Shown here piece after piece: positions 6,013 to 37,058 of a stretch of 64,000 nucleotides of DNA (position 1 is its first letter; every line of letters starts with the position of its first letter). The position numbers and the translations under genes were made by a program. Source of the DNA: Cellvibrionales bacterium (GTDB lineage: Bacteria; Pseudomonadota; Gammaproteobacteria; Pseudomonadales; JAHEIH01). The notes below the pieces were generated by a model, which saw only the letters and a program-made list of their open reading frames with translations, was not told the DNA's origin and ran no database searches. The stretch covers positions 124,001-188,000 of the forward strand of contig JAHEIH010000005.1 of NCBI GenBank assembly GCA_024639455.1, read 5' to 3'.

Positions 6013-7341
6013 GTGGCCTCAGAGAAAAACACAAGCAAAGACATGTTTAGCGGTAGCACCGCCACCGCCATTGTGGTCGCCAACATGATCGGCACCGGCG
6101 TGTTCACCTCACTTGGCTTTCAACTGGTGAGCATCCAAAGCGGTGTCGGCATTATGGCACTGTGGCTAATTGGCGGCATCGTGGCGCTATGTGGCGCCTT
6201 GAGTTACGCCGAGCTCGCCTCTCGCTTGCCTAGATCCGGCGGTGAATACAACTTCCTCAGCGAAATCTACCACCCCTGCGCCGGTTTCATTTCTGGCTGG
6301 GTATCCGCCACGGTTGGCTTTGCCGCCCCCACCGCGCTCGCTGCCATGACCTTTGGCGTATATTTGCAAGCGGTAGTACCCAGTGCGCCCCCCATGCTTT
6401 CCGCTACCTTACTGGTGATTATCAGTGTTGTGGTGCATGCCACGAGCCACCGCAACAGCGGCGCCCTGCAAGCCATCTTCACCAAGCTCAAAATTCTATT
6501 AATTGTTGGCTTTTCAATCGCCGCGCTTATTAGCCTAACCGAATGGCAGCCGGTAAGGTTCGTTCCCAACACATCAGATATCGCCACCCTTACCTCAAGT
6601 GATTTTTTTGTGTCACTGATTTACGTTAGCTTTGCTTACAGCGGCTGGAACGCCGCCACCTACTTAGCCGGCGAAGTTGACGACCCACAAAGACAGCTCC
6701 CCAAAGTCCTTGGGCTCGGTACCCTGCTCGTCATTGGCTGCTATTTACTCCTTAATGTGGTGTTCATGTTAAGCGCGCCAACGGAGGCGTTAGCCGGCCA
6801 ACTAGAAATTGGCGTTATCGCCGCCAAAGCCGCTTTTGGAGACCTTGGCGGTAAAATCATGGGGGGCATGCTTGCTATCTTGTTGGTATCTACCGTAAGC
6901 GCCATGATCATTGCCGCGCCCAGGGTGCTGCAAATGGTTGGGGAAGACTACCCCTTCTTTGCCTGGTTGGCTCGACGCAACAAACACAATATTCCCACCG
7001 TGGCGGTTTATACCCAAGGGGCAATAGCGCTGATGTTTATGTGGAGCGCCTCGTTTGAAAGTATCTTGATCTTTTCTGGGGCCACCATGGCGCTGAATAC
7101 CTTGTTTAGTGTGGTGGGGTTATTTATTTTGCGCCATAAGCATCAAGGTACCCCCGCGTTTAAACAACCGTATTACCCTTTCCCTGCCCTCATTTTTACA
7201 GCCATCACCACCGCCACCTTAATATTTTTGACCCTGCAACGCCCCACGCAACTGTTGGTGAGCTTGGTTATTATTGTCAGCGGCGCTACCCTTTACTTTC
7301 TGGTGACCCCTCGAAAAAAACACCCAAATAGAGCACACTAA
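6013..7341 (+). CDS. APC-superfamily amino acid permease
   Basis: This 442-residue inner-membrane transporter has about 12 hydrophobic segments. The APC signature lies in TM1 (VVANMIGTGVF) with the conserved Gly-rich unwound segment. YAELASRLPRSGGEYNFL follows in the TM2-TM3 region, typical of cationic/neutral amino acid permeases. The substrate cannot be assigned. Start choice is weak: GTG at 6013 or ATG at 6043, neither with a strong ribosome binding site. It is unrelated to motility and lies between fliS and the flagellin, which is unusual. An intrinsic terminator follows at 7380-7402. Confidence 0.85.
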   Translation: MASEKNTSKDMFSGSTATAIVVANMIGTGVFTSLGFQLVSIQSGVGIMALWLIGGIVALCGALSYAELASRLPRSGGEYNFLSEIYHPCAGFISGWVSATVGFAAPTALAAMTFGVYLQAVVPSAPPMLSATLLVIISVVVHATSHRNSGALQAIFTKLKILLIVGFSIAALISLTEWQPVRFVPNTSDIATLTSSDFFVSLIYVSFAYSGWNAATYLAGEVDDPQRQLPKVLGLGTLLVIGCYLLLNVVFMLSAPTEALAGQLEIGVIAAKAAFGDLGGKIMGGMLAILLVSTVSAMIIAAPRVLQMVGEDYPFFAWLARRNKHNIPTVAVYTQGAIALMFMWSASFESILIFSGATMALNTLFSVVGLFILRHKHQGTPAFKQPYYPFPALIFTAITTATLIFLTLQRPTQLLVSLVIIVSGATLYFLVTPRKKHPNRAH

Positions 7342-18494: not shown

Positions 18495-18610
18495 AGTGTT
18501 TCCCTTGTGCCGAATTCGAAAGGGGCAAAGCATAGTGTTTCAGCCTTCCGGACGCAATCGCCATCTCCGCTAAAAGCCTTGTTTCGAGGTTCTTTTCACG
18601 CCGCAACCTC

Positions 18611-30225: not shown

Positions 30226-31533
30226 ATGAGTCAGCCTCCCAGCCGAGAATACAACATCGACAGCCTCAGCCACGATGGTCGGGGCATCGCCCGCCACGCG
30301 GGCAAGGTGTGTTTTATCGCAGGCGCCCTTCCCGGGGAACGCGTCAAGGCCCACATCCAGCAGCAAAAGTCATCCCACGACCAAGCGATTCTCGTGAGTG
30401 TTGAAGAGCCATCCAGCGAACGCGTGAGCCCACCCTGCCCCTATGTTGAGCAATGCGGTGGCTGCCAATTACAACACCTCTCCCACCAAGGCCAACTCGC
30501 CTATAAACAAGCCAGTCTGCTCGACATGCTACAGCGCCAAGCCGGTTTGAGCCCCGCTCGCTTGCTCGCGCCTATAGTAAGCCAACCCTTCGCTTATCGC
30601 CGTCGCGCCCGCCTGTCGGTATACACACCCAATAAAGGTCGCCCGCTGGTGGGTTTCCGCGAAGCCAGCGGCCACAAAATTACCCCTATCGATAACTGCA
30701 TGGTGTTGGTGTCGGCGCTGCAAGCGCTGCCGGTAGCGTGCCAAACCATGGTGGCACGTTTTGCCAACCCCAAGATCATTGGCCATATCGAGCTGAGCTT
30801 GGTGGAAAACGACGGCGTTGAGGTGCCCTTGATTCACCTGCGCACCACAGAATACCCCAGCCCGGAAGATTTTCAGTGGCTGCGCCAATTTGCCACTGAG
30901 CACGCCTGCCGCGTCAGCGTGCATTACGGAAACGATGGCTACGAAGCACTTGATAACAACGAGCAACATATTAGTATCGCCGGGGGTAGCATTACCATGG
31001 ACTATCGTGGCGGTGATTTTATGCAGGCTAACCAGGGCGTCAATGAAGCGATGGTGGCCAGAGTTGTCGAGTGGATGAAAGATGTCGAAGGAGACATCCT
31101 AGACGCCTTCTGTGGTCTGGGTAACTTTAGTCTAGCGCTAGCCAAGCATGGCCACCGCGTGGTAGGCGTCGAAGGCGATGTTGCCATGGTGCAGCGTGCC
31201 CAAGCCAATGCCGAAAAAGCAGGTTTTGAGGCTGAATTTTTATGCCGAGATTTGTTCGGCGACAACAAACAATTAGCGCGTCGCAAGTTCGCTGCGGTCG
31301 TGCTCGACCCACCGCGCGATGGTGCTTTCGCCCTCGTTAGCGAACTGGTCAAAAAGAAAATCGACCGCATCGGCTATGTGTCGTGCAACCCTGCCACCAT
31401 GGCCCGCGACGCGGCGGTATTAGCCAAGGCGGGTTATCGATTAGTTGAAGCCGGCATTGCTGATATGTTCCCACAAACGGGACACATTGAAGCGATGGCG
31501 CTGTTTGAATTTGCCGGCAAGCGCAAGAAATAA
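30226..31533 (+). CDS. rlmD: 23S rRNA (uracil-1939-C5) methyltransferase RlmD
   Basis: This 435-residue SAM-dependent RNA methyltransferase begins with a TRAM domain (LSHDGRGIARHAGKVCF). It has a four-cysteine Fe-S site (CPYVEQCGGCQLQH plus Cys in the region after), the SAM motif LDAFCGLGNFSLALA, VLDPPRDGA, and the catalytic YVSCNPATMARD. Length and motif order fit RlmD rather than RlmC or TrmA. Confidence 0.95.
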   Translation: MSQPPSREYNIDSLSHDGRGIARHAGKVCFIAGALPGERVKAHIQQQKSSHDQAILVSVEEPSSERVSPPCPYVEQCGGCQLQHLSHQGQLAYKQASLLDMLQRQAGLSPARLLAPIVSQPFAYRRRARLSVYTPNKGRPLVGFREASGHKITPIDNCMVLVSALQALPVACQTMVARFANPKIIGHIELSLVENDGVEVPLIHLRTTEYPSPEDFQWLRQFATEHACRVSVHYGNDGYEALDNNEQHISIAGGSITMDYRGGDFMQANQGVNEAMVARVVEWMKDVEGDILDAFCGLGNFSLALAKHGHRVVGVEGDVAMVQRAQANAEKAGFEAEFLCRDLFGDNKQLARRKFAAVVLDPPRDGAFALVSELVKKKIDRIGYVSCNPATMARDAAVLAKAGYRLVEAGIADMFPQTGHIEAMALFEFAGKRKK

Positions 31534-31587: not shown

Positions 31588-34008
31588 TTACTTCACCAGT
31601 AATATCTTACGGCCGTGATCCCAGTCAAAGCTCACCCGCAATTGCTTGCTCGCCGCATCATACTCACCCTTTACCGCCGCGCCATCAATAAGCACACTGC
31701 CGCTGGCGTCGATGTTATGTACCACTAGCGTGATACGGCGCTGCTCGGGCATACCTTCGTATACACTGCCAGGCACTAATCCCAACCAACCGCGCACGGT
31801 GCGTTCGATGCCGTCTGGCACCAACTCACCACCACGCTCCGCAGTAAACGAGAGGGCTAGGCCTTTTTCCGCACTGTAGCCGGCCTTGAAGAGCAATGTT
31901 TCATACGCGCCGCGTGCAAAAGCACCAGCGGTTTGGCCGTCGTCCTCATACATGTAGCCTTCGGCACTCGTCACCTCGGGGTGGTGGTAATAGTGCACGG
32001 TAAGTTTTTCACTGCTGTAGTCGCGGGCGATCATCACCTCGTCTACCATAGGTACGAAGCTACCGGCTTTAACCAATACGGGAATGGTCTGGATGTCGAC
32101 CGGAACATTTTGCACGCGACCACCGCGGCAGACGTCACCGTTCCAGAAGTTAATCCAATTGCCGTTTGGCAGCGTCACCGGCCACTCACTTACGCCGGGT
32201 TTGGTCACCGGAGACACCAAGAAGGCATCGCCCCACATGTAGGTGTCGCGCACGTCAATCAGGTCGACGCTGTCCTGCTGAAAAAACAGCGGGCGGAACA
32301 GCGGTAAACCGCGGTTTTCTGCTTCGTGCGCCAAGGTGTAGTTGTAGGGCATCAAGCGGTAGCGCAGTTCGATGTAACGGCGAATATTCTCGCGAATACT
32401 GTCTTCATGAAACACCGGCTCAGGCGCGATGGGCTCGATACCGTGAGGGCGATAAATGGGTTGGAACACCCCGTATTGCAGCCATCGTGTATAGGCTTCG
32501 GGCACCCAATCCTCAGTCGCGAAACCACCCAAATCGGAGTGTTGGAAGGCCATTCCAAACAGGCCCATCTGCAGATTTAATTCCACTTGTGGCCACAGAC
32601 CGCCCCAGCCGCGCTTCACATCGCCGGTCCAGGGAATCATGCCGTAGCGTTGCGAACCGGCAAAACCGGCACGCATCAGTAAGAATAAGCGGCGATCGGG
32701 ATAGGTTGCCACCCAGTTGTCATAGACAGCCTGAGCCCACTCGTGGCCATAGGCGTTGTGGACTTCATCGCCGCGGCCATCAACGTGAATAATGTCATCG
32801 GGGTGAACTTCAGGCTCACCCAAATCGCCCCACCAGCCGGCCACACCACTGTCGGTGTGGTGTTGGTAGATATCCCAAAACCAGTCCTTAGCCTTGTTAT
32901 CGAACAAGTCCAACAAGCCCGTATTGCCAAAATAGAAGTCAAATTTGTAGGGTTCACCCGCCTCGTTCTTGGCAATCACATCGGCCTCTTCCGCGTCCTG
33001 CCAGCGATCAGAGGTGGTTAATATATAGGGTTCGGTGATCAGAATAGTGTTCACACCCTTATCACGCAGGTCATCCATCATCTCGATCGGGGTAGGCCAG
33101 AATTTATAATCCCAGTCCAATTTACCCATATGCCCCTGGATGTCTTTGCCAAACCAATACAGGTCGATCACAATACCATCGACCGGCAGTTTGGCTTGAT
33201 CAAACAGATCGATAGTGTCACGCACCTGTTGCTCGCTGCGATAGCCGAAACGGGAGGCGATATAGCCCATCGCCCAGCGTGGCGGCATGGGCTGGCGACC
33301 GGTTAACGCGGTGTAATTTTCAACGATGCCAGCAAAGCTGGGCGCTGCCACGATGTAGTAAGCACTGCGTCCACCCACGGTTTCAAAACTCAGTGTATCG
33401 GCCTCGGTAGCGCCGATGTCCATGGTGCCCTTAGCCGCGTTATCGAACATCAACATATATTTGTTGCTCGACACGTAACCCGGCATGGAAAAGTTAGCTT
33501 CGTAGGTTTCGTTTTCTACCCACGCGGGTTTGTTATAGAGCGACAGTCGATGGCCGCGGCGATCCATACCGAGCACACGCTGACCACCGCCCATGATTTT
33601 TTCATCCTTGGCCAGTGCAAAATCTACCGCGACACGACGTGTTTCGTTTTGTAAGCCGCGACGTTCACTCACCAGCTCACGTCCTTCGCTGCTATAACTG
33701 AGCAGCATACTGGCTTTATCAAGCGCTACCGTAAGACCCGTTTGGCTGTAAACCAGTTGCTGAGGGAATTCCTGTAAGCTTCCACCAACAGGCGCTAGGC
33801 CAGGCTTAAGGCTGTAGCTGCGATGCAATTCACCACCACTGGGGGTAAACGAGGCCTCGGCCGCCCAAGGCGATAGAAAGGCCACCCGCAACTCTCCGTC
33901 GTCGGCTTGAATAATCAGGGCATTGCCCTCGGTGCGGTGCCCCACATATTCACGGGCCTGCGCCCCCAGTGAAATGACAGCTACAACAACGAACAGTATT
34001 AAGCGCAT
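31588..34008 (-). CDS. GH31 alpha-glucosidase, exported
   Basis: This 806-residue glycoside hydrolase of family 31 has an N-terminal signal peptide (MRLILFVVVAVISLGAQA). A beta-sandwich and the (beta/alpha)8 barrel follow. The likely nucleophile is Asp395 in WWGDLGEPE and the likely acid/base is Asp463 in WTGDVKRGW. HSDLGGF follows at about 490. The C-terminal beta domains include a DUF5110-type YEDDGQTAGAF. GH31 members cleave terminal alpha-glucosyl or related residues; the exact specificity is open. It is the second gene of the GH97-GH31 operon (15-nt gap), probably periplasmic or surface-associated. Confidence 0.92.
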   Translation of the reverse strand: MRLILFVVVAVISLGAQAREYVGHRTEGNALIIQADDGELRVAFLSPWAAEASFTPSGGELHRSYSLKPGLAPVGGSLQEFPQQLVYSQTGLTVALDKASMLLSYSSEGRELVSERRGLQNETRRVAVDFALAKDEKIMGGGQRVLGMDRRGHRLSLYNKPAWVENETYEANFSMPGYVSSNKYMLMFDNAAKGTMDIGATEADTLSFETVGGRSAYYIVAAPSFAGIVENYTALTGRQPMPPRWAMGYIASRFGYRSEQQVRDTIDLFDQAKLPVDGIVIDLYWFGKDIQGHMGKLDWDYKFWPTPIEMMDDLRDKGVNTILITEPYILTTSDRWQDAEEADVIAKNEAGEPYKFDFYFGNTGLLDLFDNKAKDWFWDIYQHHTDSGVAGWWGDLGEPEVHPDDIIHVDGRGDEVHNAYGHEWAQAVYDNWVATYPDRRLFLLMRAGFAGSQRYGMIPWTGDVKRGWGGLWPQVELNLQMGLFGMAFQHSDLGGFATEDWVPEAYTRWLQYGVFQPIYRPHGIEPIAPEPVFHEDSIRENIRRYIELRYRLMPYNYTLAHEAENRGLPLFRPLFFQQDSVDLIDVRDTYMWGDAFLVSPVTKPGVSEWPVTLPNGNWINFWNGDVCRGGRVQNVPVDIQTIPVLVKAGSFVPMVDEVMIARDYSSEKLTVHYYHHPEVTSAEGYMYEDDGQTAGAFARGAYETLLFKAGYSAEKGLALSFTAERGGELVPDGIERTVRGWLGLVPGSVYEGMPEQRRITLVVHNIDASGSVLIDGAAVKGEYDAASKQLRVSFDWDHGRKILLVK

Positions 34009-34023: not shown

Positions 34024-36027
34024 TTATTGTTTAACGAAACGTAGCGCGGCACCACCGCCGGGCTTCATGTCGAGGATGAGGGTTTCACCGGCGTGAAGTG
34101 TACGCTGGGTAATGATGTAATCCATAGGGTTATCGCGCCAGTGGGCAGCCTCGCCATCGGCGTAGATCTCCACCTGGTAGATCGCACCACTATCGAGGAA
34201 GTCGGTGACCAAGGCGTACTGGCGAGGTAACTCGTTGCTGGCGGCACCGACATACCAGTCGTCGCTGTGGCGATCTTTGCGGGCAAATACCAAGTATTCT
34301 CCTACCTCTCCTGCCAAGGCGATACTCTCGCTCCAATCCGCGGGCACATCGTCGATAAATTTAAAGGCGGGGTGGCCTTGATAGTGCTCAGGCAGATCTG
34401 CCGCCATCTGTAACGGACTGTAAATGGTCACATAAAGGGCCAGTTGCTTCGCCAGCGTGGTCGGCACACGGTTGAAGGGGCGGTGCTTTTGGTAGTCAAA
34501 CTTAAACACCCCGGGGGTATAGTCGGTCGGACCAGACAATCCTCGGGTAAAGGGGAACAGCACCGTGTGATTGGGCAAATTGCCGGTATCGGGGCTGCCA
34601 CCGTTGTATTCCATCCCACGCACGCTCTCGCGGGTCATCAAGTTCGGGTAGGTGCGGCGCAAGCCGGTATCCTTGATAGTTTCATGCGCGTTGACCATCA
34701 CGCCATATTTGGCGGCTGTCTCTACGACTTTACGGAAGTGACGCACCATAAACTGGCCGTGGTGCCACTCTTTACCGTTTTCCAGACGCGTGCCCACATA
34801 GCCCATTTTCACCGAGGTAATACCCAGTTTCTGATAGTAGGCAAAGGCTCGCTCCATCTGTGCTTCGTAATGGCTAATACCCGCGGCAGTTTCGTGGTGA
34901 CCAATTAAACGCAACCCTTTTTCTTGCGCATAGCGACTAACCTCTTCAATATCGAAACCATCCACCGGTTGATCGAACAAGAACGTGGGTTCACGGCGCC
35001 ACCACTCACCTTCCCAACCCTTATTCCAGCCTTCCACTAGCACACCGTCGATATCGTGTTGTGCGGCAAAATCGATGTATTGCTTGGCGCGCTCAGTGGT
35101 AGCACCTTGGTCAGAACCGGGGCTCCAGTTGGCGAGGCCAGTATGCATTTCCCACCAAATACCCATGTACTTGCCGGGTTTCACGTAACTCGACACGTCG
35201 CCCAGCTTGTTGGGTTCGTTTAAGTTGAGGAGTAAATCGGAGTTCATCAACGCTACCGCACTGTCGGCGATTTGAATGGTGCGCCATGGTGTTTTCATCG
35301 GCGCACTGGCATATACGCGAACGCCATTCGCCCAAGGTACCAAGTCAGCGCGAAACACTTTTTGATTATCATCGATATTGCGCAGGGTCATCGAGGCGTA
35401 ATCCACCAAAGCCGCTTCGTGCACAGCAATGGCAATTCCGTCGCCTTGCAACGTCAACGGTGTATGTGCCACATCGATCGAGCTCACCGCCGAGCGAAGA
35501 TACTGGTATTCATAGCGTTGATTGCGGTAAGCAGGAATCCACCAAGACTGATAATTTTGCGCAAAGGCAAATTCGGTAAGCTCTTCGTCAATGATAAAGT
35601 CTTGCAGGTTGGCTTGTTCGGGGAATTCATAGCGGAAACCGAGTCCATCGTCATAAACGCGGAAGGTCAGACCCAAGGTACGCTTGTCACCATTTTGTTC
35701 ACGCAACTGTAAAGACAATTCATTGTAGTGGTCATTAATTTGTAACCGCTCACCCCACACCGTTTGCCACTGTTGACGAATCACTTCGCGGTCTTCAGTC
35801 AGCACCGACAGATTGTCCTGCAGCGGTGCCTGATCGCGTATTTGGAAACCCAAATTTGACGAGCGTATGACTGGCTTTCCTTTGTATGTCACGCTATACG
35901 ATGGTTTTCCAGCGGTGATGTCGACCACCACGCGGATATCACTGTCGGGGGATTGGACATTAAATTGCTCAGCAAGAGTGTTGCAAGAAAGCGAGGCAGT
36001 GATCATTAGAAACAACCAATGGCGCAT
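34024..36027 (-). CDS. GH97 alpha-glucosidase (SusB type), exported
   Basis: This 667-residue family-97 glycoside hydrolase has a signal peptide (MRHWLFLMITASLSCNTLA). The ATG at 36027 follows GGAG with 7-nt spacing; an upstream in-frame start has none. The barrel contains NAHE (Glu449) and RGMEY (Glu473). The 24-residue spacing equals that of the catalytic glutamates of Bacteroides SusB. This suggests the inverting, glucose-releasing subgroup rather than the retaining alpha-galactosidase subgroup. The motif WWEMHTG and the LVEGWNKGWEGEWW segment also fit. It is the first gene of the operon, from the promoter at 36155-36184. Confidence 0.92.
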   Translation of the reverse strand: MRHWLFLMITASLSCNTLAEQFNVQSPDSDIRVVVDITAGKPSYSVTYKGKPVIRSSNLGFQIRDQAPLQDNLSVLTEDREVIRQQWQTVWGERLQINDHYNELSLQLREQNGDKRTLGLTFRVYDDGLGFRYEFPEQANLQDFIIDEELTEFAFAQNYQSWWIPAYRNQRYEYQYLRSAVSSIDVAHTPLTLQGDGIAIAVHEAALVDYASMTLRNIDDNQKVFRADLVPWANGVRVYASAPMKTPWRTIQIADSAVALMNSDLLLNLNEPNKLGDVSSYVKPGKYMGIWWEMHTGLANWSPGSDQGATTERAKQYIDFAAQHDIDGVLVEGWNKGWEGEWWRREPTFLFDQPVDGFDIEEVSRYAQEKGLRLIGHHETAAGISHYEAQMERAFAYYQKLGITSVKMGYVGTRLENGKEWHHGQFMVRHFRKVVETAAKYGVMVNAHETIKDTGLRRTYPNLMTRESVRGMEYNGGSPDTGNLPNHTVLFPFTRGLSGPTDYTPGVFKFDYQKHRPFNRVPTTLAKQLALYVTIYSPLQMAADLPEHYQGHPAFKFIDDVPADWSESIALAGEVGEYLVFARKDRHSDDWYVGAASNELPRQYALVTDFLDSGAIYQVEIYADGEAAHWRDNPMDYIITQRTLHAGETLILDMKPGGGAALRFVKQ

Positions 36028-36154
36028 AAAGGAACTCCATATCTGTATAGGTAATGTATGCGCCAACTTTTCGAGTTAACACAATCGATGGCCAAAATGT
36101 AACTTAATTACAAAATGTTCAGTTTTTTTGAATATTTTTTAATTGACTTACAAG

Positions 36155-36184
36155 ATAATACTGGTAAAGTACCCTCATGTGCAA
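36155..36184 (-). promoter_or_regulatory. Promoter of the GH97-GH31 operon
   Basis: On the minus strand, TTGCAC (36179-36184) and TATTAT (36155-36160) are separated by 18 nt. This gives a leader of about 120 nt to the GH97 ATG. The -35 overlaps the operator at 36180-36193, so repressor binding would block RNA polymerase. Confidence 0.55.
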
Positions 36185-36193
36185 CCGGTTGTA
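36180..36193. promoter_or_regulatory. LacI/GalR-family-type operator
   Basis: TGCAACCGGTTGTA fits the family consensus TGnAAnCGnTTnCA, with a central CG and 6 of 7 symmetric pairs. It lies over the -35 of the GH97 promoter and at about +4 to +17 of the divergent plus-strand promoter. No lacI-family gene is in the window, so the regulator would be encoded elsewhere. Confidence 0.6.
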
Positions 36194-36258
36194 TATCTGT
36201 GTTGTTACTGTTTCCGTGAAAGCTGAGTTTATGTGCAGTGAACCCAGCGATTTTTTTG

Positions 36259-36285
36259 GGGCTCCTTATGGAGCCCTTTTTTTTT
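36259..36285 (+). terminator. Strong intrinsic terminator of the candidate small RNA
   Basis: A 7-bp perfect GGGCTCC/GGAGCCC stem with a TTAT loop is followed by nine T residues (36277-36285). It reads on the plus strand only; the minus strand lacks a U tract. Confidence 0.8.
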
Positions 36286-36303
36286 GTACATGGATGTACT
36301 TAT

Positions 36304-36374
36304 GCCGCGGAAGGCAGGACGCCTGAGAGCGGCGTTAGAAAGGATTTAACGCTAACAACGTCGCTATTTTTTTG
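36304..36374 (+). promoter_or_regulatory. Attenuator-like leader upstream of slyD
   Basis: The arm GCGGCGTT (36329-36336) can pair with AACGTCGC (36357-36364, one G-U) followed by TATTTTTTTG, giving a terminator. Its 5' half can alternatively pair with GCCGC at 36304-36308, closing a hairpin with an inner AGGC/GCCT stem. The two pairings exclude each other. I recognise no known riboswitch class. Confidence 0.4.
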
Positions 36375-36533
36375 AGTCCAACGTTTGGGCTCGTCATTTA
36401 GGACGACTAAACTTCTCACCCAAAAGTCGTACTCGCCTTAAACTCGCATCCACGCCAACGCTTCATGCTTCACGGCATGGAAATTTATGCCCAATTCCGC
36501 CATACTGTCGGATCATTCATACGAGGTACTATC

Positions 36534-37019
36534 ATGACTATTTCTGAAAACAGTGTTGTAGCGTTTCACTACACACTGACCGACGACGACGGCAACACCA
36601 TCGACAGCTCAGCGGGTGGCGAGCCCCTGCACTACCTGCACGGCGCCGGTAACATCATCCCAGGTCTGGAAAAAGAACTGGTTGGCAAAAAAGTAGGTGA
36701 CAACTTACAAGCGAAGGTGTCTCCTGCTGAAGGCTACGGTGAAATGATCCCCGAGATGATCCAGCAAGTACCCAAGGCCGCCTTCCAAGGCGCCCCTGAA
36801 CTTGAGGTAGGCATGCAATTTGAAGCGGCAACCCAAGATGGCGGTCGCGTACCTGTGACCATTACCGCGATCGAAGACGATACCGTCACCGTTGACGGTA
36901 ACCACCCTCTGGCAGGTAAAAACCTTAACTTCGACGTCACCATTGAATCCGTTCGTGAGGCGTCTGAAGAAGAGCTACAACACGGCCACGTGCACGGCCC
37001 CGGTGGTCACCACCACTAA
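36534..37019 (+). CDS. slyD: SlyD-type FKBP peptidyl-prolyl isomerase
   Basis: This 161-residue cytosolic prolyl isomerase/chaperone has the FKBP core VVAFHYTLTDDDGNTIDSS and LHYLHGAGNIIPGLEKEL. An insert-in-flap domain and the NHPLAGKNLNFDVTI segment follow. The tail HGHVHGPGGHHH is His-rich but shorter than the E. coli SlyD metal-binding tail. The ATG at 36534 follows GAGG at 7 nt; an in-frame ATG at 36465 is rejected. The dedicated terminator at 37035-37058 makes it a separate unit. Confidence 0.92.
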   Translation: MTISENSVVAFHYTLTDDDGNTIDSSAGGEPLHYLHGAGNIIPGLEKELVGKKVGDNLQAKVSPAEGYGEMIPEMIQQVPKAAFQGAPELEVGMQFEAATQDGGRVPVTITAIEDDTVTVDGNHPLAGKNLNFDVTIESVREASEEELQHGHVHGPGGHHH

Positions 37020-37034
37020 GCCAGCACAGCAAAA

Positions 37035-37058
37035 ATCACCGCCCTGCGGTGATTTTTT
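37035..37058 (+). terminator. Intrinsic terminator of slyD
   Basis: An 8-bp stem ATCACCGC/GCGGTGAT with a CCT loop is followed by a T run. It ends slyD 15 nt after its stop codon. Confidence 0.85.

Follow-up and report, generated by a model that had tools for sequence, protein, structure and literature searches.

A predicted small RNA gene with HexR-type and LacI-type control sites in a Cellvibrionales bacterium

A 64,000-nucleotide stretch of DNA from a Cellvibrionales bacterium (the window) contains, between a GH97 gene and slyD, what is very probably a small RNA gene. The RNA is previously undescribed, and although small RNAs of this kind are known, its wiring is unusual. Our preferred reading, with a probability of roughly two in three, is that of an independent gene for a trans-acting RNA of about 109 nucleotides (nt) that belongs to a central sugar regulon, is locked by HexR and a LacI-family repressor, and exerts Hfq-aided repression through the open stretch UGUUUCCGUGAAA. 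The control sites point to central sugar flux, signaled by KDPG, as the first input and to sucrose and alpha-glucosides as the second.

The gene occupies positions 36177 to 36285 of the plus strand (109 nt), with a predicted start near 36177. It is preceded on the same strand by the promoter TTGACT-16-TAAAGT (36143 to 36170), whose -35 hexamer TTGACT lies at 36143 to 36148 and whose -10 hexamer TAAAGT, with an extended TG, lies at 36165 to 36170. Taken alone, the promoter is at chance level: 3 promoter-like matches were found against 4.0 expected in the 4.5 kb scanned. The predicted transcript contains hairpin 1 (GUGCAACCG...UGUGUUGUUAC, 36179 to 36208), a fully conserved open stretch of 13 nt (36209 to 36221), hairpin 2 (GCUGAGUUUAUGUGCAGUGAACCCAGC, 36222 to 36248) and an Hfq-type 3' end composed of a U7 run, an intrinsic terminator stem-loop and a U9 tail (36251 to 36285), all on the plus strand. 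The terminator, GGGGCTCC-TTAT-GGAGCCCT followed by T9, has a GC-rich and perfect stem. The 109-nt unit folds at -34.5 kcal/mol (z = -4.0), and none of 200 shuffled sequences is equally stable. Under a strict rule, the 64 kb contain two perfect strong terminators, that of the RNA and that of slyD (37034 to 37054), and 100 Markov-shuffled windows contain none. The terminator of the RNA serves no coding gene, because its left neighbor, GH97, is encoded on the minus strand.

The preliminary description of this DNA, made from the letters alone, placed on the plus strand at 36143 to 36285 a promoter, a 109-nt unit with an internal hairpin, a U7 run, a perfect terminator and a U9 tail, in a spot where no gene needs a terminator. 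This anatomy is confirmed, and slyD has a terminator of its own. The Hfq module that it proposed is consistent with the type of 3' end and with the presence of hfq in the genome (G000:C7, E 4.5e-29). No Rfam family matches the RNA at gathering score. The best sub-threshold family, RyhB, reaches 23.1 bits where 55 are needed; identity with RyhB was rejected, as the similarity at 23 bits lies mainly in the U run and the terminator.

The unit is conserved in a second genome of the same genus (G001; the window genome is G000), which keeps the promoter hexamers and their spacing (TTGACT-16-TAAAAT). The RNA core includes a run of 55 nt without substitution between the two genomes, while slyD is 75% identical to its G001 copy with a longest identical run of 14 nt, and rlmD is 59% identical with a longest run of 20 nt. 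The two RNAs are predicted to fold alike into hairpin 1, UGUUUCCGUGAAA, hairpin 2 and the terminator, and the open stretch is mostly unpaired in the predicted ensembles of both. Pairing is kept in the G001 terminator stem (GGGAGTC-TTCG-GACTCCC), where both partners of two base pairs have changed. Hairpin 1 shows a single one-sided pair change in G001 (G-U to A-U) and hairpin 2 is invariant; thus, two sequences cannot prove these two hairpins by covariation. The promoter, the 55-nt core, the hairpins and the doubly changed terminator stem are all kept in G001, which indicates that the RNA gene is real and not an artefact, a conclusion held with high confidence for 36177 to 36285. Loss of the promoter or terminator in relatives had been named beforehand as evidence against the RNA, and G001 retains both.

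The RNA is known from two genomes, one of which is a metagenome-assembled genome (MAG) that is 75% complete. Among 84,980 named species, the exact core pattern occurs only in the sister MAG JALRIU010000307.1 (Pseudomonadales bacterium QJ.27), to which the G001 contig with the RNA looks identical. A DNA search of 391 genomes of the order gave nothing beyond the genus except short partial matches, nearly all of them to terminators, and a covariance-model search of the same genomes accepted no relative outside the genus. Two weak covariance matches, in G362 and G012, were rejected by their context: one is a hairpin resembling a terminator downstream of an mla-type operon, the other a spot adjoining a tRNA. 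The RNA is absent upstream of slyD in 28 genomes of other families, and no viral contig matches it.

Two HexR-type boxes, which the preliminary description does not mention, are found at the RNA promoter. Box 1, TGTAACTTAATTACA (36098 to 36112), lies upstream of the -35 hexamer and is centered near -72, and box 2 (minus-strand TGTAAGTCAATTAAA, 36138 to 36152) overlaps the -35 hexamer. G001 has TGTAATTCAATTACA in the place of box 1, with one difference, and the distance from box 1 to box 2 is 40 bp in both genomes (positions 6097 and 6137 of G001:C228). Searched without mismatch, TGTAANTNAATTACA has a single match in each genome, the box 1 site. In the whole of G000, the box palindrome with at most one mismatch occurs nowhere but at two sites in the RNA promoter, between hexR and pgi, and at a single site within a coding region. 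This pattern was derived from the RNA promoter and recognized as HexR-type after the match at hexR-pgi; it was not predicted beforehand. A pair of boxes with a distance of 52 bp is conserved in the hexR-pgi intergenic region of G000 and G001. The regulator beside pgi, a member of the RpiR family, has as its best NCBIfam model PRK11302 HexR, at 294.7 bits, which is 1.3 under the cut-off of 296, and its gene is divergent from pgi-edd-zwf-pgl-eda-gap-pyk (L124 6994-16000, G000:C22). These seven genes encode a near-complete Entner-Doudoroff pathway in a single operon, with HexR-type boxes and a LacI-type operator.

Because the boxes are common to the RNA promoter and hexR-pgi, membership of the RNA in the Entner-Doudoroff (HexR/KDPG) regulon is the most likely reading, and HexR-type control of the RNA is probable on sequence grounds. 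Box 1 differs at two positions from the Vibrio HexR consensus TGTAATTAAATTACA, a motif that leads to repression from positions downstream of the promoter and to activation from upstream positions (PMC11906056). KDPG is the ligand of HexR in Pseudomonas (PMC5489143). The position of box 2 over the -35 hexamer suggests repression relieved by KDPG, and box 1 near -72 could either help cooperative binding or serve activation. A further HexR-like box, TTTAATTAAATTACA, is present in G001 at L037 1501-1515 (G001:C30), about 235 bp upstream of a gene for a POT-type oligopeptide transporter.

A palindromic LacI-family operator, TGCAACCGGTTGTA (36180 to 36193), spans RNA positions of about +4 to +17 and also covers the -35 region of a possible divergent GH97 promoter. 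The 2.88-Mb genome has just one further exact match to it; this match precedes an amylosucrase-like GH13 gene and has a second copy of the motif 23 bp away. With at most one mismatch, about nine distinct places are found, seven of them before sugar genes and three with a tandem copy 21 to 23 bp away. One-mismatch operators occur in tandem before a gene pair for a LacI-family regulator and a ScrK-type fructokinase, likewise in tandem before a TonB receptor gene, and also before two GPH sucrose symporter-like genes and before pgi. Two further one-mismatch places are inside unrelated genes and look like chance. Judged from its sites, this is a genuine operator of a sucrose/alpha-glucoside regulon. 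The TonB receptor gene of this regulon is followed, within L127 5100-11146, by two genes whose N-termini, read by eye, resemble FAD-dependent tryptophan halogenases.

At the RNA, the operator is degenerate in G001 (TACAACCGATTATG, with 3 mismatches to the operator pattern, hence absent from the matches with at most one mismatch), and at pgi in G001 it is degenerate or absent. The RNA and the Entner-Doudoroff operon thus carry both kinds of site in G000 and HexR-type boxes only in G001. LacI-type control of the RNA in the window species is fairly probable, slightly less so than control by HexR. The operator noticed in the preliminary description is therefore genuine and located at the RNA start, but it is not conserved there in G001; control of the RNA by sugar, its broader proposal, is upheld as the best reading of the sites. 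The RNA level probably rises when sugar is eaten.

The neighborhood of the gene bears on its partners. In the window, GH97 (34024 to 36027, minus strand) is divergent from the RNA and is followed by GH31 (31588 to 34008), and these two genes part the RNA from an rlmD/rumA-type RNA methyltransferase gene (30226 to 31533, plus strand). The conserved downstream neighbor, slyD, encodes an FKBP-type prolyl isomerase (36534 to 37019, plus strand) and forms a separate unit. The gene order in G001 is rlmD-RNA-slyD, and the first HexR-type box begins there about 5 bp past the rlmD stop; GH97 is found on a different contig and is preceded, about 60 to 70 bp from its start, by an operator of its own, TGCAACCGATTGCA. 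The preliminary description tied the RNA to the glucosidase operon, and an RNA of that operon controlled solely by the operator common with GH97-GH31 would account for an operator that is real, rare, part of the sucrose/alpha-glucoside regulon, and placed both over the RNA start and upstream of GH97. The tie does not survive the comparison with G001, where the RNA has no GH97 beside it, GH97 and its operator are elsewhere, the operator at the RNA is degenerate and the conserved element is the pair of HexR boxes. GH97-GH31 is thus, as far as the two genomes tell, a neighbor of the RNA and no conserved partner, and this explanation is unlikely. Of the conservation and covariation that had been suggested for a check upstream of GH97 in relatives, G001 shows the RNA, its promoter, its terminator and the double changes in the terminator stem, with GH97 on the other contig. 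An equally unlikely alternative keeps the small RNA as described but has its boxes bound by a different regulator responding to a different signal. Both genomes encode a second RpiR-family paralogue, and RccR, of the same family, binds related boxes of the type TGTAGT/ACTACA (PMC5489143); however, the boxes at the RNA fit the HexR type TGTAAT/ATTACA instead, they recur in the hexR-pgi intergenic region, and the locus of the paralogue itself yielded no strong box.

Two other explanations dispense with an independent RNA. The unit could be the leader of slyD with a premature terminator acting as an attenuator, as slyD comes next and is encoded in the same direction in either genome. This is very unlikely, given that the distance from terminator to slyD is about 249 nt in one genome and 75 nt in the other with a poorly conserved spacer, that a CATACT-like -10 motif just upstream of slyD is conserved, that the sequence offers no apparent alternative antiterminator pairing, and that the slyD loci of other families lack the RNA. 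Still less credence is due to a small protein translated from a leaderless ATG at 36177, in place of a functional RNA. A frame read by eye is open from this ATG through the terminator, but crossing a terminator itself speaks against a coding role, the ATG is missing in G001 (CAGTAC...), no Shine-Dalgarno sequence is present, and synonymous changes are entirely missing from the 55-nt core, whereas the neighboring genes are 59 to 75% identical.

For the preferred reading, an independent RNA in the central sugar regulon, the following course of events is proposed. Without sugar, HexR on the two boxes, one of them over the -35 hexamer, would keep the RNA promoter down. When sugar enters, Entner-Doudoroff flux would produce KDPG, HexR would leave, and the RNA would be made together with the Entner-Doudoroff enzymes, the same release by KDPG being expected for the pgi-edd-zwf-pgl-eda-gap-pyk operon. 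In the window species, a LacI-family repressor bound at +4 to +17 would be a second lock, one that the RNA shares with GH97-GH31 on the divergent side. Once made, the RNA would use UGUUUCCGUGAAA to base-pair with mRNAs, assisted by Hfq; by analogy with Spot 42, its most likely effect would be repression of genes for the use of other carbon sources as long as sugar is available.

The open stretch is the probable target-pairing (seed) region, and its UUUCC is complementary to ribosome sites of the GGAAA type. Among 111 gene starts from the window and selected genome stretches, RNAduplex ranks apbC/mrp best, at -18.2 kcal/mol against a mean of -9.5. The predicted pairing joins the open loop of the RNA to an apbC/mrp-like leader at 18533 to 18580 (minus strand). 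The target prediction with the single-stranded part, which had been proposed earlier, gave no target conserved between G000 and G001: a search of both genomes with the complement of the conserved loop found no site common to the two.

Spot 42 (spf, RF00021) of enterobacteria and vibrios is an intergenic RNA with an Hfq-type 3' end that acts on mRNAs of carbon use and is held down by CRP-cAMP. The window RNA resembles it in length, intergenic location, 3' end and expected abundance on sugar, but differs in having HexR-type and LacI-type sites and rlmD and slyD as neighbors. The Spot 42 covariance model has no match in the window at gathering score, nor any with E up to 5 in 36060 to 36560. The comparison with Spot 42 drawn at the outset thus holds for the logic and fails for sequence, which is unrelated, and for the regulators, which are different. 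The CrcZ and CrcY RNAs of Pseudomonas are also small RNAs of carbon catabolite control that act with Hfq; they are longer, A-rich Hfq/Crc decoys, whereas the window RNA is short and U-rich, lacks repeats of that sort and is not recognized by any Rfam model.

The HexR regulons of Shewanella, Vibrio and Pseudomonas have pgi and Entner-Doudoroff genes as co-members (PMC11906056, PMC5489143, PMC5343134). They share the box type and these genes with the regulon described here, but their described members are protein genes. Bns1 of Neisseria meningitidis, a small RNA induced by glucose, is controlled by a GntR-family regulator and is unaffected by a hexR knock-out (PMC4423775). As is proposed for the window RNA, it is held down by a sugar-related repressor, and it is divergent from genes for regulators of carbon metabolism (PMC4423775); it differs in answering to a GntR-family regulator and not to HexR, and it belongs to a different bacterial class. 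The SuxR sucrose regulon of Xanthomonas (PMC1790865), likened by gene content, also combines a LacI repressor, a TonB receptor, a sucrose transporter and an amylosucrase, but the set in the window genome is scattered and also takes in the pgi-Entner-Doudoroff operon, GH97-GH31 and the small RNA.

A literature search, largely confined to papers outside subscription, found no HexR-controlled small RNA. The chances are about even that the RNA represents a new small RNA family that serves the HexR/KDPG Entner-Doudoroff regulon as a dedicated RNA arm, which would make it the first small RNA under HexR, and in one species also part of a sucrose regulon. Since its control sites are common with those of the Entner-Doudoroff operon, the RNA would report Entner-Doudoroff flux via KDPG. 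The sugar-responsive small RNAs of enterobacteria, such as Spot 42 and SgrS, answer to CRP or to sugar-phosphate stress. If the proposal is true, bacteria without Spot 42 would have a sugar-flux-sensing RNA, a regulon whose described members are so far protein genes would gain an RNA layer, and a neighboring operon could tie a small RNA to a second sugar regulon.

The surroundings of the gene show two further features. The position of GH97 differs between the two genomes of the same genus, with a LacI-type operator nearby in both, which suggests that it has moved since their split. Directly after the RNA terminator, at 36289 to 36330, lies a REP-like element (CATGGATGTACTTATG...). A related element is present in three tandem copies after another terminator of the genome (L008, about 1512-1650), and a 21-bp identical match to the REP-like element occurs in a genome of another family (L003).
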